Below are positions 20,503 through 60,685 of a stretch of DNA of 64,000 nucleotides, one piece after another. The DNA is from a virus. The DNA lies in IMG/VR virus record IMGVR_UViG_3300009320_000007, positions 1-64,000 of that record. One strand, 5' to 3'. Positions within the stretch are counted from its first letter, which is position 1; each line of letters opens with the position of its first letter. The notes under the pieces were generated by a model. That model was given only the letters and a program-made list of their open reading frames with translations. It was not told the DNA's origin and searched no databases. Made by a program: the position numbers and the translations under genes.

Positions 20503-20561
20503 GTCACCCTCCAGGCACCCATTGTAGCACCCCGTACCGGTCCCGGCAAGCCCACTTGTAG

Positions 20562-20648
20562 TGGGAAGGGGAGGATTCGAACCCCCGTGTTTACCCGTTC
20601 GGGACCTGGTCTACAGCCAGGCGCCATCAACCACTCGGCCACCTTCCC
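20562..20648 (-). tRNA. tRNA-Tyr (GTA)
   Basis: Complete cloverleaf of 87 bases: acceptor GGGAAGG/CCTTCCC, anticodon stem CCTGG with loop CTGTAGA, long variable arm as expected for bacterial Tyr, T-loop GGTTCGAATCC. CCA is not encoded. Confidence 0.93.
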
Positions 20649-20652
20649 ATGG

Positions 20653-20736
20653 TACGGGAGGGGGGACTCGAACCCCCACGAGCTTGCGCCCACTAGATCC
20701 TGAATCTAGCGCATCTGCCAGTTACGCCACTCCCGC
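20653..20736 (-). tRNA. tRNA-Leu (CAG)
   Basis: 84 bases, class II with long variable arm; anticodon stem CTAGA around TTCAGGA; acceptor GCGGGAG/CTCCCGT closed by a G-T pair; T-loop GGTTCGAGTCC. Reads CUG. Confidence 0.93.
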
Positions 20737-20740
20737 ATGG

Positions 20741-20824
20741 TACCGAGGGGGAGACTCGAACTCCCACGAGCTTTCGCCCACAGCGCCCTCAACGCTGCGC
20801 ATCTGCCAATTACGCCACCTCGGT
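20741..20824 (-). tRNA. tRNA-Leu (GAG)
   Basis: 84 bases, class II; anticodon loop TTGAGGG on stem CAGCG/CGCTG; acceptor ACCGAGG/CCTCGGT. D-arm and variable arm closely match the CAG gene, indicating duplication. Reads CUC/CUU. Confidence 0.93.
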
Positions 20825-20841
20825 ATCCTCTCAAAGAACAG

Positions 20842-20925
20842 TGCTCGGGGTGGGGGTCGAACCCACGTGGGCTTGCGCCCCAGGGATTTTAAGTCCCCTG
20901 CCTGAGCCAGCTCGGCAACCCGAGC
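20842..20925 (-). tRNA. tRNA-Leu (TAA)
   Basis: 84 bases, class II; anticodon loop CTTAAAA; acceptor GCTCGGG/CCCGAGC; T-arm GGGTTCGACCC. Reads UUA, a codon expected to be rare in this GC-rich genome. No intron. Confidence 0.92.
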
Positions 20926-20929
20926 GCAG

Positions 20930-21013
20930 TACCGGGGGCGGGAATCGAACCCGCACGACCTTGCGGCCACCGACTTTTGAGGCCGGCGCATCTGCCAGTT
21001 ACGCCACCCCGGC
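20930..21013 (-). tRNA. tRNA-Leu (CAA)
   Basis: 84 bases, class II; anticodon loop CTCAAAA on stem CCGGC/GTCGG; acceptor GCCGGGG/CCCCGGT closed by G-T. D-arm identical in most positions to the CAG and GAG genes. Reads UUG. Confidence 0.92.
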
Positions 21014-21085
21014 AAAGCAACGATTGGAGCGGGGACCCTCCCCCTGTCTCCCAACTCGTTGAGAACGCACGTATCAAAGAAACAA

Positions 21086-21139
21086 CCCAACCGCTGCGGG
21101 GATCTTCGGTCCCCGCTCTACCAGCTGAGCTACCTGAGC
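21086..21139 (-). pseudogene. tRNA remnant (5' half, Phe-like)
   Basis: A canonical 5' half is present: acceptor strand GCTCAGG, D-arm TAGCTCAGCTGGTAGAGC and an anticodon hairpin with loop CCGAAGA (GAA position, but C instead of T at 33). No matching CCTGAGC acceptor strand and no GTTCRA T-loop follow. Probably a decayed tRNA-Phe gene; an unusual structured RNA is possible. Confidence 0.5.
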
Positions 21140-21166
21140 AACAGCTGCAAATGATTTCCTGAAAAG

Positions 21167-21249
21167 TCGGGGCGACAGGATTCGAACCTGCGTATGCCTC
21201 TCGGCCCGGGCCCCAAACCCGGTGGGTAACCAGCCTACCCTACACCCCG
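21167..21249 (-). tRNA. tRNA-Pro (TGG) with long variable arm
   Basis: 83 bases: acceptor CGGGGTG/CGCCCCG, D-stem GGGT/ACCC, anticodon loop TTTGGGG on CCGGG/CCCGG, T-arm GCAGG-TTCGAAT-CCTGT. The variable region is 14 bases (a GCC/GGC mini-stem), whereas Pro tRNAs normally have about 5. Should read CCA and CCG. Confidence 0.85.
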
Positions 21250-21250
21250 G

Positions 21251-21324
21251 TCGCCGCAACTGGAATTGAACCAGCGGCCTCTTCCTTATCAGGGAAGTGC
21301 TCTAACCTGCTGAGCTATGCGGCG
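21251..21324 (-). tRNA. tRNA-Ile (GAT)
   Basis: 74-base standard cloverleaf: acceptor CGCCGCA/TGCGGCG, anticodon loop CTGATAA, T-loop GGTTCAATTCC. Separated from tRNA-Pro by one base, so the tRNAs are probably processed from one transcript. Confidence 0.94.
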
Positions 21325-42362: not shown

Positions 42363-43118
42363 CTAACTGAGAGCCGCTCCGCCCACCAGGCCGGCGCCGG
42401 CGCCGACAGCGGCAGGAACGAAGTACGGGTGCTGTGTTACTTTACGAGCTCTGCCCATGAACCCGGCCAGCATCCCCCGCTGCATGGGGGAGTAAACCGG
42501 GCCTCGAGTATAAGAGCGCACCGGCGCACCGGCGCCGGCCCGAGTAGTGGTCACCGCTGTCGGCGCTCCTGGGAGCGCTGCGGTGGGCCTGGTGGCGGCT
42601 AAGTGCTGCTGGTAAGCGGGAGCCCGGCCCCGGTACAGCCCCACCTGCCGGCCGGTAGCGAAACCTTCGCTCTGGCGGAAAGCCGTCCGCTGCTGCTTTG
42701 CCGCTCGTTGAGTCAGCTGCCCAGTACGGGCGCTGGCCACCGGCCTGAGCCGCTGCGCCCCGGCGGCTGCCGCCGCCTGCTCCACCCGGACGGCCTTCTG
42801 GGTACCTACGGCACGGGCCGTGGTGCCCTTGATGCGCCGAGCGCCGGCGCCTCCGGCCTTACCGGTCCCCTTGAGGGCAGCAACGCCGGATTTGTTGAAC
42901 TTGGCCATGCCCCCCTTGCCGATCTTACTGATCATCTGAGCTTCCAGGGCAGCGAGGCGCTTGGCCTCCATGCCCGCCAAGGTGCCGGCCTGGCCCAAGG
43001 AGCGAAGCTTCAGGATGGCCCGGCCGAGGGATTGGAGGCCCCCCGCTTCCTTCTCCAGGCCCTCCCCCATTGCCGCCAACATTCCCTGCCGAAATTCCTG
43101 CAACAGGCTGCTGCTCAT
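42363..43118 (-). CDS. Ala/Gly/Arg-rich putative virion protein
   Basis: 251 residues of low complexity, very basic, with an N-terminal FRQGMLAAMGEGLEKEAG motif shared with other proteins here and a C-terminal hydrophobic Gly/Ala segment (YFVPAAVGAGAGLVGGAA). Composition suits a DNA-packing, injected or membrane-penetrating virion component. ATGA coupling with the upstream gene. Confidence 0.55.
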   Translation of the reverse strand: MSSSLLQEFRQGMLAAMGEGLEKEAGGLQSLGRAILKLRSLGQAGTLAGMEAKRLAALEAQMISKIGKGGMAKFNKSGVAALKGTGKAGGAGARRIKGTTARAVGTQKAVRVEQAAAAAGAQRLRPVASARTGQLTQRAAKQQRTAFRQSEGFATGRQVGLYRGRAPAYQQHLAATRPTAALPGAPTAVTTTRAGAGAPVRSYTRGPVYSPMQRGMLAGFMGRARKVTQHPYFVPAAVGAGAGLVGGAALS

Positions 43119-43513: not shown

Positions 43514-44128
43514 CTACCCAGCGCTTACCGCCACCTCTATACGCCCCGGCAACTTCTCCCACCAGGACACCCACCCTTTCTTTCCTTTCCATAACTTACT
43601 TGCAACGCAAATACGCCTCTCCCCCCGCATCCCTATGTCAGATGAGCAGTAGACGCCGGGGATGTCTGCAAGCTGCTGCACAATGCCGCTGTGATTTCTT
43701 TGCCCGCCGGGAAGACGGAACACTACTGCCGCCGGCCGCAAGGCGTTCTTCCCGGCCTCCGTAGACCTGATCTCCACGGGGAGGGCGTTGATGCTCTCCA
43801 GCCACTCGTCCTTAAGGTCCTTGTCCACGGAGAGACCCCGCCACAGCTTCTTAGGGGCGTTCGTACGCCCACGCAGAAGCCCGGGAGGGTCCTTTTTATA
43901 GACAGTCCTATAAGCAAGAGTGGGAGAGTTTACCTTTCCTTCCAAGAGCATCCGCAAGCCCAATCCCCGGCCTATCCGGCCGATCAAGCCACGGGGGCGC
44001 CTCTCCCGGTCCCCCCGCCAGTACCCTTTCACCTGCGATTGTTCTCGCTGATGAGGGCGGACGTAACCGGCAGTTTTCTCAAAGGCGGCAAAAAAACCTC
44101 GTTGGAATGGGCCAAACTGGTTTCTCAT
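43514..44128 (-). CDS. putative virion-associated basic protein
   Basis: 204 residues from the ATG at 44128 (GGAGG). N-terminal FGPFQRGFFAAFEKTAG motif, basic middle (RERRPRGLIGRIGRGLG) and a mixed C-terminal domain. The motif links it to the proteins at 28607 and 42363. Confidence 0.6.
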   Translation of the reverse strand: MRNQFGPFQRGFFAAFEKTAGYVRPHQREQSQVKGYWRGDRERRPRGLIGRIGRGLGLRMLLEGKVNSPTLAYRTVYKKDPPGLLRGRTNAPKKLWRGLSVDKDLKDEWLESINALPVEIRSTEAGKNALRPAAVVFRLPGGQRNHSGIVQQLADIPGVYCSSDIGMRGERRICVASKLWKGKKGWVSWWEKLPGRIEVAVSAG

Positions 44129-44216
44129 GGCTTCCTCCACCTGGAAGCAGGATACCACTACTGCGGAAAATGTCCAGCAGCGGGCAACGCACTAAGAGAC
44201 AGCCACCCACCGAGCA

Positions 44217-44984
44217 CTAGACTCCCCGTTGTCTCGCTGAAGGTCGATGCGTCTGCCAAGCAGAGATTCGCTTCTCCACCCTCCTGTCTCTCACTCGGGC
44301 TCCTGAGCATCCTACAATCGCTGCTACTTTGGCATCCGACATGGTTCCCAACAGATGATCATATTTGGCCCAATCAAAGCGAGAAAAGTGCCACTTGCGG
44401 TAGGGGGCAATCCCAAGACGGCTCCGCCGGGCCGTTACGGTTCGGGTCGCGCAGCCTACCTTTTGCGCTACTCTGGCATCCGACGTTGTGCCCAGGAGGC
44501 AGTCGTAGGTGGCCCAGTCATAGCGCTCGGGGCGCGTACAAGGGGGTATGCCCTTCTGCTTGCGGTGGCTGTAAACCGTCGACGCAGAACAACCTAGAAT
44601 TTGGGCAATTACTGTGTCAACCTCTTTGCCCAGGAGGTGCTGCACTCTATACCACTCATACTGAGGCTTTCGCCCAATTTCCCGCATTGAAAGCGGCGCC
44701 ATCGGGATGCCGAGTAGCGCACGTTCTTGCCTGATTCGTTCTCGACTGCACCCGAATCTCTTCGCAAGCTGGTTGTCCGGAACCTTCCCCAGGAGAGGCG
44801 TGATCTTTGCCCAGTCGAGTTTGGGTTTTCCCCCTCTGTAGGGTGCCCGCCCTCCAGTGTAACTGGGGGATATTCCCCGCTTCTGCCGCTGGTATGTTAC
44901 TACGCTTTGAGGTACTCCAAGGCGCTCAGCGATGAATCGATCAGTGTACTCGCCGAGCGGGATCTGGTCCCAAGTTACGTTCAA
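44217..44984 (-). CDS. protein of five tandem HTH repeats
   Basis: 255 residues from a TTG at 44984, 6 bases after GGAGG. Five repeats of about 45 residues, each of the form (F/Y/L)-D-W-x5-LLG-x3-D-x2-(V/L)A-x3-GC(S/A)-x3-V-x3-R-x3-GI-x-P; the first is degenerate. The pattern (for example DNQLAKRFGCSRERIRQERA then LLGIP) is a homeodomain-like helix-turn-helix. Such an array should read a long DNA site, one HTH per segment. Codon choice is more AT-rich than neighbours. No enzyme domain is attached. Possible regulator, partition or DNA-organising protein. Confidence 0.75.
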   Translation of the reverse strand: MNVTWDQIPLGEYTDRFIAERLGVPQSVVTYQRQKRGISPSYTGGRAPYRGGKPKLDWAKITPLLGKVPDNQLAKRFGCSRERIRQERALLGIPMAPLSMREIGRKPQYEWYRVQHLLGKEVDTVIAQILGCSASTVYSHRKQKGIPPCTRPERYDWATYDCLLGTTSDARVAQKVGCATRTVTARRSRLGIAPYRKWHFSRFDWAKYDHLLGTMSDAKVAAIVGCSGARVRDRRVEKRISAWQTHRPSARQRGV

Positions 44985-45029
44985 GGTGCACCTCCAGTGC
45001 CTCTCGGAGGCGGAATGTCGGTTCGGACT

Positions 45030-45413
45030 CTATCCACCATCTTCGTTCTCCCCGAGGGCCTCCCGTACCGTCTCGAAGGTCAGTTCGCAGCACCGCTCTT
45101 CCCCGCACTTGGGGCAGATGTTGTCAACTCCAGGGAAGTAATTCCCGGCGTCGTCCCATTCTTCGGGGATGTTGCCTAACTCCCCCCATGGGAAGTACGC
45201 CAGGCACCGCCAGCATTGAACGGCGAAGTCCTTGACGTACTCGAAAAAGTAGGAGGGCTGCCCCTTACTGCCGATCTCGTAAAAGGGGACTTGTTGGATT
45301 ACCCTGGCGCCCTCCTCCTCCGTAGCCCTCCCAGGCACGTAGTAGGGCTCCCCCGCATGGGGGTTTTTCCGGAGCGTGCCCTTGTCTATCCTAATGTAGA
45401 AGTTACCCTTCAC
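45030..45413 (-). CDS. hypothetical zinc-binding protein
   Basis: 127 residues from a GTG at 45413 (GGAGG). VQCWRCLAYFPWG and ICPKCGEERCCEL give a likely zinc site in the C-terminal half. Start overlaps the upstream gene by 11 bases. Confidence 0.65.
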   Translation of the reverse strand: MKGNFYIRIDKGTLRKNPHAGEPYYVPGRATEEEGARVIQQVPFYEIGSKGQPSYFFEYVKDFAVQCWRCLAYFPWGELGNIPEEWDDAGNYFPGVDNICPKCGEERCCELTFETVREALGENEDGG

Positions 45414-46284
45414 TCTCTCCCTCCTCTTCCTCAAACTCCCGATTCTGTCCATCCCCCCCTCCGTCAGTAGCATCCGACTTCTGTGGTAGCCCAAACAGGT
45501 AGCGGAGCTTGGCCTCCAAGTTCTCCTTGAGCTCCACATGTTCGGCAAGTACTTTCTGCAACCGCTCATCGTTGAGGGCCTCCCGCGCCTTGTCGAGCCT
45601 CTCTTCCACCTCCAGGCAGCGGGCTTTCCAGCCCGTCGCCCCTCCGTCGTACACCGACTGGGTGCGGACCTCCCAGGGTTTCGCCGTACGGTCCAGCATG
45701 GCCTCGCAAGCCCGGAGCCGCAGCTGGTCGGCGTAGAACTGCGCCAGCTGTCCCACCCAGCCGTTGAAATAGTGGACTCGCTTCGCCGTAGGGGAGGAGT
45801 ACTTGAGGGTGAGGTTGCTCCAGGCGTTGGCCGAGAGTTCCCCCTGCACCCGGTCCAGGAAGCTGGACACGGTACACCTGTACGTGCAGTCGTGTTTGTG
45901 CCAGTGAGTGACGTCGCAGAAGATCTCGAACACCCGACCGGTGGGGAGGTAGCCCACCATCAAGCCGTAGAGAAACTCCGCCAGGTAGTCACGGGGCAGA
46001 CTGATTCCCCCCGAGCTCTCCTTGAGGGCCTGATTCATCGCCATGATGTGCTCCGACGGGGTAACCATCTTCTGGCCAATCTCGTCCGCCGCCTCTTCGG
46101 CCGGCGTCCCGCCTTGGAGCGCCTTCAGGAGGGAATGCAGGTCTTCCATAGGCAACTGAATTGCCCCGGGAGCCTCCTGCCCCTCCGGAAACTCGAGGGC
46201 GACATCCCTGAGGATGACCACGCTCCCCCGCTTTTCTATGCCGCCGATGTGAGTCACAACGATGTTCGGTTTGCTCGTCTTCAT
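45403..46284 (-). CDS. hypothetical protein
   Basis: 293 residues from the ATG at 46284 (GGAGG). N-terminal beta domain (VVTHIGGIEKRGSVVILRDV), a His-rich HWHKHDCTYRC segment, and a C-terminal coiled coil ending in an acidic run. The frame is open upstream to the TAG that ends the previous gene, and a 28-bp near-perfect direct repeat links the two regions. Confidence 0.65.
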   Translation of the reverse strand: MKTSKPNIVVTHIGGIEKRGSVVILRDVALEFPEGQEAPGAIQLPMEDLHSLLKALQGGTPAEEAADEIGQKMVTPSEHIMAMNQALKESSGGISLPRDYLAEFLYGLMVGYLPTGRVFEIFCDVTHWHKHDCTYRCTVSSFLDRVQGELSANAWSNLTLKYSSPTAKRVHYFNGWVGQLAQFYADQLRLRACEAMLDRTAKPWEVRTQSVYDGGATGWKARCLEVEERLDKAREALNDERLQKVLAEHVELKENLEAKLRYLFGLPQKSDATDGGGDGQNREFEEEEGESEG

Positions 46285-58377: not shown

Positions 58378-58386
58378 ACTACAAGC

Positions 58387-58415
58387 GCCGGCCGGGGCCT
58401 TGTGCCGGCAGGAGG
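58387..58415 (+). promoter_or_regulatory. repeated leader hairpin, copy 1
   Basis: GCCGGC-cggggccttgt-GCCGGC immediately before AGGAGG of the next gene. Nearly identical copies at 59927 and 60172. Confidence 0.7.
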
Positions 58416-58421
58416 GAGACG

Positions 58422-58816
58422 ATGAAGATTTTGAATCTAACGCAACATCCGGCTTCATCTGAACAGAGACAGGCGGGAGTCATTGACTTACCGCCTGAGT
58501 TGAAGCGGAAGCTGGCAGAGTTCCTGACTTTCGAGGAGCTCCCGAGAAGAAATGAAATCCGCCTTCGGGCGGAAAAGATCGCCGACTTGGCCTATGGATA
58601 TATCATGGGTCAAGGGGGATGGGGCGACGCCATTATAGGTCGGGCCATGATAGGAGGAGCCCCCTATTTAATGGCCCCCTTGAGGACGTGTTACTAAGTC
58701 TCTCAATTCGTCCTCTCTACGCGTTCTCCCGTCGGGAGAGCGTAGAAGAGACACTTCCAGATGGAAGCGTCAAAAAGGTCCAGGTGTTTCGGCACCTGGG
58801 CTTTGTGGATGCGTAA
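58422..58816 (+). CDS. conserved phage/mobile-element protein (MKILNLTQHPA type), frameshifted
   Basis: Begins MKILNLTQHPASSEQRQAGV, a pattern I recognise from a widespread family of unknown function. The first frame stops at 58697 (91 residues), but a second frame continues the family sequence (APLEDVLLSLSIRPLYAFSR ... VQVFRHLGFVDA) to 58816. The junction is the C5 run 58675-58679; a -1 slip on CCC, or one missing C in the read, gives a continuous protein of about 131 residues. GGAGG and the leader hairpin precede the ATG. Confidence 0.75.
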
Positions 58817-59873: not shown

Positions 59874-59926
59874 GTATCTAGTCTAGGTGCTTGCTGGGGC
59901 ACCCAGGCGCTCGGGTAAGAAAGAGT

Positions 59927-59955
59927 GCCAGCCGGGGCCTTGTACCGGCAGGAGG
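59927..59955 (+). promoter_or_regulatory. repeated leader hairpin, copy 2
   Basis: GCCAGCCGGGGCCTTGTACC then GGCAGGAGG; two base changes relative to copy 1, just before the ATG at 59962. Confidence 0.65.
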
Positions 59956-59961
59956 GAAAAC

Positions 59962-60162
59962 ATGATCACAGAGAAAATAGAGCAAATCCGGGCGGATGCC
60001 CAAGAGATTTTCAACCTTCCCGGTGCGGACGGTCGCTTTGCCTTCGATAGCGACCGGTGGACGGCTTCCATCGAAGCCGCCCTGTATCAGGGCGGGTATT
60101 GTCGCGGTAAGGCATTTGAGCGCCTGTTTTGGACGCTCAAGAAAGAGTACCCGAATACCTAA
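59962..60162 (+). CDS. small hypothetical protein
   Basis: 66 residues, helical (MITEKIEQIRADAQEIFNLP). Preceded by leader copy 2 with AGGAGG. Unknown. Confidence 0.65.
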   Translation: MITEKIEQIRADAQEIFNLPGADGRFAFDSDRWTASIEAALYQGGYCRGKAFERLFWTLKKEYPNT

Positions 60163-60171
60163 CCAACCAGA

Positions 60172-60200
60172 GCCGGCCGGGGCCTCGTGCCGGCAAGGAG
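60172..60200 (+). promoter_or_regulatory. repeated leader hairpin, copy 3
   Basis: GCCGGCCGGGGCCTCGTGCC then GGCAAGGAG, directly upstream of the ATG at 60206. Confidence 0.7.
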
Positions 60201-60205
60201 AAAGT

Positions 60206-60685
60206 ATGAGTAACCACACGAAAGGGCCCTGGAAGGCCCGAGATGGTATCGTCCAGGTAGTCGGGGGCGGCCCTGACTACACCTTCTACGCCCCCGGCGA
60301 ATCGGCCGGAGAAATGAGAGCCAACGCTCACTTGATAGCGGTGGCACCCGAGATGTATGAGGCAGCGTCCATGGCCGCCCGATACCTGCGGCAAGCGCCG
60401 CAACCGCCCGACCGGAGGTACGAAGCGGTACTCATGGCGCTCGATAGAGCGCTCAAGAAGGCCGCAGGCAGGACGTTGCCCTCTGCTCCGTTGGGCAAGC
60501 TTCTTTGCTCCAGTGCCGGGGAACCCGGGTGCTTCTCTGAGTGTGAGCACGCTGAGGTCCACACTGAACTCCCGGCCTACCCCTGCCGAGGGGCCTACTC
60601 TTGCCCCAGCGTAGGGAGGGAAGTTCTCTGCATGCCCGTAGCAGAGACGCCTCCTGCGGATACCCCGCTCAGCCAGGAAAAGTAA
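60206..60685 (+). CDS. common phage protein (HTxGPWK family)
   Basis: 159 residues. SNHTKGPWKARDGIVQVVGG and later RANAHLIAVAPEMYEAASMA match a small protein common in phages (HTPGPWK...NARLIAAAPEMLEAL) of unknown function. The C-terminal half adds a Cys-rich tail (six Cys). Leader copy 3 lies in front. Confidence 0.75.
   Translation: MSNHTKGPWKARDGIVQVVGGGPDYTFYAPGESAGEMRANAHLIAVAPEMYEAASMAARYLRQAPQPPDRRYEAVLMALDRALKKAAGRTLPSAPLGKLLCSSAGEPGCFSECEHAEVHTELPAYPCRGAYSCPSVGREVLCMPVAETPPADTPLSQEK

Follow-up and report, generated by a model that had tools for sequence, protein, structure and literature searches.

At positions 44217 to 44984 of the window, by which we mean the whole 64,000-nucleotide stretch of virus DNA analysed here, the minus strand encodes a stand-alone array of five predicted helix-turn-helix (HTH) modules. 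We consider this protein, with a probability of about one half, to be a non-catalytic, sequence-specific multi-module DNA reader and probably a regulator of the phage; because it carries no enzyme, it would act by occupancy. The five HTH modules, placed on flexible linkers, would bind DNA successively, each via its own recognition helix, and would jointly read one long composite site, which we estimate at roughly 20-50 bp.

The gene (44217..44984, minus) encodes a protein of 255 aa that is strongly basic (47 K+R versus 21 D+E; pI 10.4). The earlier note described a TTG start behind a GGAGG without giving the strand; the ORF indeed reads from a TTG at 44984 down to 44217, and the Shine-Dalgarno GGAGG (44991..44995, minus) is separated from it by a 6-nt spacer. 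The codons are more AT-rich than those of the neighbours, as had been claimed, although the difference is modest: GC3 is 0.60 versus a mean of 0.71 (SD 0.07) for 57 window genes, only two of which have a lower value. The source record, a virus contig of 89,166 bases, matches another IMG/VR contig (145,296 bases) with 100% identity over the 10.8 kb compared. The array gene is thus counted as one independent locus, and each of the two phage contigs has one array gene.

The five repeats are confirmed at residues 2-38 (module 1, 44871..44981), 55-93 (module 2, 44706..44822), 108-146 (module 3, 44547..44663), 154-192 (module 4, 44409..44525), and 202-240 (module 5, 44265..44381), all on the minus strand. 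Similarity between repeats is 7-14 SD above shuffles in nine of the ten pairs, and the weaker pair of modules 1 and 5 has a z of 3.5 that was reached by 2 of 500 shuffles. The unit period is 46-55 residues. Predicted helices lie at residues 15-22 and 26-35 in module 1; 58-64, 70-77, and 81-91 in module 2; 108-117, 123-130, and 134-143 in module 3; 157-163, 169-176, and 180-190 in module 4; and 205-211, 217-224, and 228-237 in module 5. TAL effector-like repeats, which have 33-35 residues, two helices, and a two-residue hypervariable site, are ruled out by the period of 46 and the HTH units.

That the repeats are HTH units, as first proposed from the letters alone, is supported by Pfam matches and by structure prediction. 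HTH_23, HTH_AsnC-type, HTH_17, and Sigma70_r4 score above the curated Pfam cut-offs, and the PHROGs match is to a family of phage proteins named 'DNA binding protein' (8.7e-12). Neither library yielded an enzymatic domain, in line with the earlier note, and the PHROG matches named 'HNH endonuclease' fall on the HTH modules. The Pfam scan gave other HTH families only, with no Myb/SANT profile, and no NUMOD profile was among the matches. An AlphaFold2 model from 26 aligned sequences has five HTH units, most of them at a pLDDT of about 90 (overall mean 83.8; pTM 0.45), each modelled as two helices plus the recognition helix, with a first helix of just three residues in module 1. The modules are therefore well predicted, while their mutual placement is undefined in the model and the linkers are predicted to be flexible. 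Because of this flexible placement, a PDB fold search with the array model returned nothing at E 0.001; Mos1 and AraC, both bipartite HTH proteins, are among the best weak matches.

The array protein fits a tandem LG-x3-D HTH family whose members have at least two units of about 46 aa, built on a scaffold of W, LLG, D, A, G, V, R, and I. Its five units score 57-72 bits each with the repeat profile, the seed of which contained those same five units, and tblastn gives independent family matches. Hand-made or consensus-like fragments in the alignments served as search patterns only, and natural proteins served as the tblastn queries that confirmed each locus. Unit spacing across the family has a median of 46 residues, with 80% within 44-52. 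The earlier note had suggested comparing repeat number among relatives; pattern scans and the repeat profile, applied to IMG/VR and bacterial genomes, gave a range of 2 to 10 units. Stand-alone arrays have two units at locus L018, four at L014, five at L012, six at L041 and L043, and seven at L021, and unit counts are 9-10 in Paraburkholderia and 6-10 in Verrucomicrobiota and Planctomycetes. The distribution is patchy (phages, plasmids, and, among bacteria of soil and water, some Paraburkholderia, Verrucomicrobiota, and Planctomycetes) and arrays are rare: at E 1e-20, two genomes in a sample of 298 additional Pseudomonadota had an array, and a sample of 194 additional Verrucomicrobiota genomes had none. 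These are lower bounds, as few candidates were scored per genome. Pfam nuclease domains occur in few of 41 array proteins (GIY-YIG in five, HNH in one). One further protein (L052) has an N-terminus that looks GIY-YIG-like by eye and was missed by Pfam, and another (L013) has a Cys-rich N-terminus.

The genomic contexts of the arrays vary and comprise tail genes, terminase, mobF, and isolated chromosomal genes; this diversity implies no single partner or role. In several temperate phages, the array is located just before the terminase genes, a position that is often occupied by regulators. In all five Burkholderia-type prophages (L021, L041, L043, L045, and L046), a gap of 1-11 bp separates the array from an upstream gene for a protein of about 150-160 aa, which belongs to no known family and is probably a winged HTH; several of these prophages have terminase genes downstream of the array. 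The arrays of L041 and L045 differ strongly in their recognition residues while the context is kept. In a single case, a Limisphaerales MAG, a seven-unit array is followed after 15 bp by the gene for an 888-aa Cas12b match (L029:4999-7665; PADLOC 9.9e-60).

In the phage genome, the array gene is preceded by an ORF (45030..45569, minus) that ends 45 bp before the array start, has a Cys-rich C-terminal half, and is a probable operon neighbour. The downstream ORF (43514..44158, minus) lies about 60-90 bp after the array gene, and no relatives of it were found outside the array phage. A sigma-70-like promoter was not found directly before the array gene. A search for a long repeated operator gave nothing convincing in the window or near the array gene, and a single or diverged site would escape this search. 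A terminase adjoining the array gene, as in the relatives, was considered and rejected, since the large subunit was unrecognised in both contigs (PHROG 2). A nuclease encoded in trans as a partner was rejected as well, as neither contig yielded a GIY-YIG or HNH domain.

The array protein could instead serve as a subunit for targeting another enzyme (a nuclease, terminase, or replication protein) to one site, in the manner of TnsD selectors, which target transposases through long multi-HTH tails (PMC10293859). The adjacency of arrays to terminase in several phages, to mobF in plasmids, and to the Cas12b gene in one MAG would fit such a role. We consider it unlikely for the window protein, as no such enzyme adjoins its gene, neither neighbouring ORF has a family match, and PHROG 2 gave no terminase large subunit in the record.

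Ten records of sequenced phages match the array protein. The matches in Vibrio and Pseudoalteromonas phages are GIY-YIG homing endonucleases (eugene 12A10 VPLG_00030, 1.187.O NVP1187O_128, 424E50-1 P0303, and J2-1) that carry the same tandem HTH module as their C-terminal part, with 3-4 detected units; their alignments with the window protein cover 76-98% of it and show 25-37% identity. They start with a nuclease domain and are encoded in or beside terminase large-subunit genes, whereas the window protein has no nuclease. A stand-alone three-unit array ORF occurs in a 485-kb phage. The terminase region of Pseudoalteromonas phage J2-1 (L010:2243-3077 and L006:2-583) contains, besides the GIY-YIG/HTH-array gene, an unannotated LAGLIDADG-like ORF.

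Matches to the window protein were also found in 110 plasmids, 103 of them from Pseudomonas, always with less than 60% identity and in 85 cases spanning at least 80% of its length. A stand-alone five-unit gene (246-247 aa), annotated as 'hypothetical protein', recurs on MOBF conjugative Pseudomonas plasmids between the T4SS genes and mobF, and on further plasmids it was found beside mobF. Like the window protein, these plasmid proteins (WP_181859260.1, WP_261742560.1, and others) comprise five modules and no other domain, and they align over 92-96% of it with about 29-31% identity; yet their recognition residues are unrelated to those of the window protein (0.03-0.10), and they belong to a plasmid transfer region rather than a phage. 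The dN/dS of stand-alone plasmid arrays is 0.19-0.21 in three pairs, one of which has a near-saturated dS, and 0.43 in one nearly identical pair; the values of about 0.2 indicate that these arrays are maintained by purifying selection. Two large plasmids, pQBR103 (NC_009444.1) and a Pseudomonas rhodesiae plasmid (NZ_CP125985.1), have seven profile matches each, in several different HTH-array stretches, and those inspected are annotated as hypothetical.

These relatives bear on whether the array protein derives from a homing endonuclease that lost its nuclease and kept only the recognition half, as a decaying or selfish remnant without function for the phage. Its closest relatives in phages of known host are the GIY-YIG homing endonucleases, in which tandem copies of the same module make up the entire C-terminal part, the codon use of the array gene is somewhat atypical, and no GIY-YIG or HNH nuclease was found elsewhere in the recovered phage sequence (both contigs, possibly incomplete). 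However, the ORF is complete, has a strong ribosome-binding site just ahead of module 1, and keeps most scaffold residues in five of five modules; stand-alone arrays are numerous, and those of plasmids are under purifying selection. An intron-borne array gene was rejected, as the window contains no intron family. Taken together, this makes a remnant improbable.

The distribution of variability within the modules argues for sequence-specific reading. In an alignment of 225 units from 42 proteins (38 columns), the scaffold positions W1, L9, G10, D14, R32, and I37 are 92-99% invariant, and A18 and V28 are 82% conserved. Of all 38 columns, entropy is highest (3.7-3.9 bits) at positions 25, 26, 29, and 30, which are predicted to lie on the outward side of the recognition helix. 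Their mean of 3.79 bits, versus 2.93 at the other variable positions, amounts to an excess of 0.86 bits (0.72-0.99, bootstrap over proteins), and the productive search patterns made no use of these four positions. Such a pattern would be expected if each module made its own base contacts independently of the others, with the proviso that variability alone is no proof of DNA binding.

Units of the same array are only about 9% identical at these four positions, whereas matching units of close relatives have 50-94% of the recognition residues in common. Recognition-residue identity of matching modules is 0.62 for L025/L038, 0.71 for L028/L029, 0.79 for L005/L008, and 0.86 for L041/L043, versus about 0.09 for non-matching modules; more distant plasmid relatives share 37-40%. 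In some relatives, at one phage locus (L041/L045/L022) and in the plasmids L084/L085, the recognition residues are less alike (0.12-0.37) than the other variable positions (0.43-0.62), and this faster change may reflect drifting or diversifying specificity or module shuffling. Covariation is higher inside the recognition helix (mean z 2.2) than for other pairs (1.2), which is only suggestive of a code. TAL effectors and C2H2 zinc-finger arrays likewise combine a conserved scaffold with hypervariable DNA-facing positions and a variable repeat number, but differ from the HTH arrays in fold and repeat length.

The least probable of the alternatives likens the array protein to D5 of phage T5 (AAS77164.1): it would coat DNA in large amounts and with weak specificity, in the service of replication and late transcription. 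T5 D5 is also a stand-alone phage protein of 255 aa, annotated as DNA-binding and required for both processes. Several HTH-like stretches in it align co-linearly with the array profile, and PHROG 323 ('D5-like') matches the window protein at 1.7e-5. On the other side, T5 D5 lacks the LG-x3-D signature, its similarity to the module profile is marginal (5.8 bits, versus 5.5 for the best of 500 shuffles), direct profile comparison gives an HHalign probability of 16-21%, and maximal variation at the recognition helices is not expected of a non-specific binder.

For the preferred reading, a DNA-reading regulator that acts by occupancy, the one-module-at-a-time reading of a long site proposed in the earlier note is supported indirectly, because the recognition helices are hypervariable on a conserved scaffold with residues kept per module in close relatives, and because repeat number varies from 2 to 10 and GIY-YIG homing endonucleases use the same modules for DNA recognition. 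Homing endonuclease recognition arms and the stand-alone arrays of conjugative plasmids would thus draw on a common pool of modules. Arms of the I-TevI/NUMOD type are beads-on-a-string assemblies of small modules, including HTH, that read sites of 20-38 bp (PMC2988022, PMC3943268); unlike the window protein, they mix module types and have a nuclease attached. For phage endonucleases with modular arms, DNA contacts extend over as much as 30 bp (PMC3943268). The most likely role of the array protein would be that of a transcriptional regulator in the phage, its own operon being one possible target. This is modelled on I-TevI, whose DNA-binding domain alone is a transcriptional (auto)repressor (PMC2988022).

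More tentatively, and in our view doubtfully, the arrays may constitute a natural scaffold for modular DNA reading, in which the module-to-sequence code is transferable, repeat number sets site length, and recognition helices diversify between competing elements. Such a scaffold would have been disseminated on conjugative plasmids, phages, and some bacterial chromosomes. The earlier note had rated the gene a novelty candidate. This stands in part: HTH units are known, and so, in principle, are homing endonucleases with multi-HTH arms, whereas the stand-alone family is unnamed in the libraries searched, and what is new is the stand-alone array whose recognition helices are hypervariable. No description of a tandem LG-x3-D HTH array family was found in the open-licence literature, which is weak evidence of absence. 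An earlier screen for TALE-like repeats (PMC5472282) could not detect this family, as it was limited to units of 30-43 residues in no fewer than 11 copies, with 5 mismatches at most. If the modules read DNA independently, they would add a further natural modular scaffold to zinc fingers and TALEs, one that is small, bacterial, and 2 to 10 units long, and would explain many 'hypothetical proteins' of Pseudomonas plasmids and phages. The natural length and recognition-helix variants make the question of a modular HTH code directly testable by experiment.

Elsewhere in the window, two neighbouring uncharacterised proteins have a common N-terminal motif of the F-x2-G-(F/M)...E-K-x-A type (43044-43094 and 44069-44107, minus). 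Three copies of a GC-rich 42-nt element, which contains an inverted repeat and a ribosome-binding site, lie at 58384-58425, 59924-59965, and 60169-60210, apparently just before genes; the element is possibly a shared leader. Seven tandem tRNA genes lie at 20561-21324, four of which are leucine tRNAs with differing anticodons.
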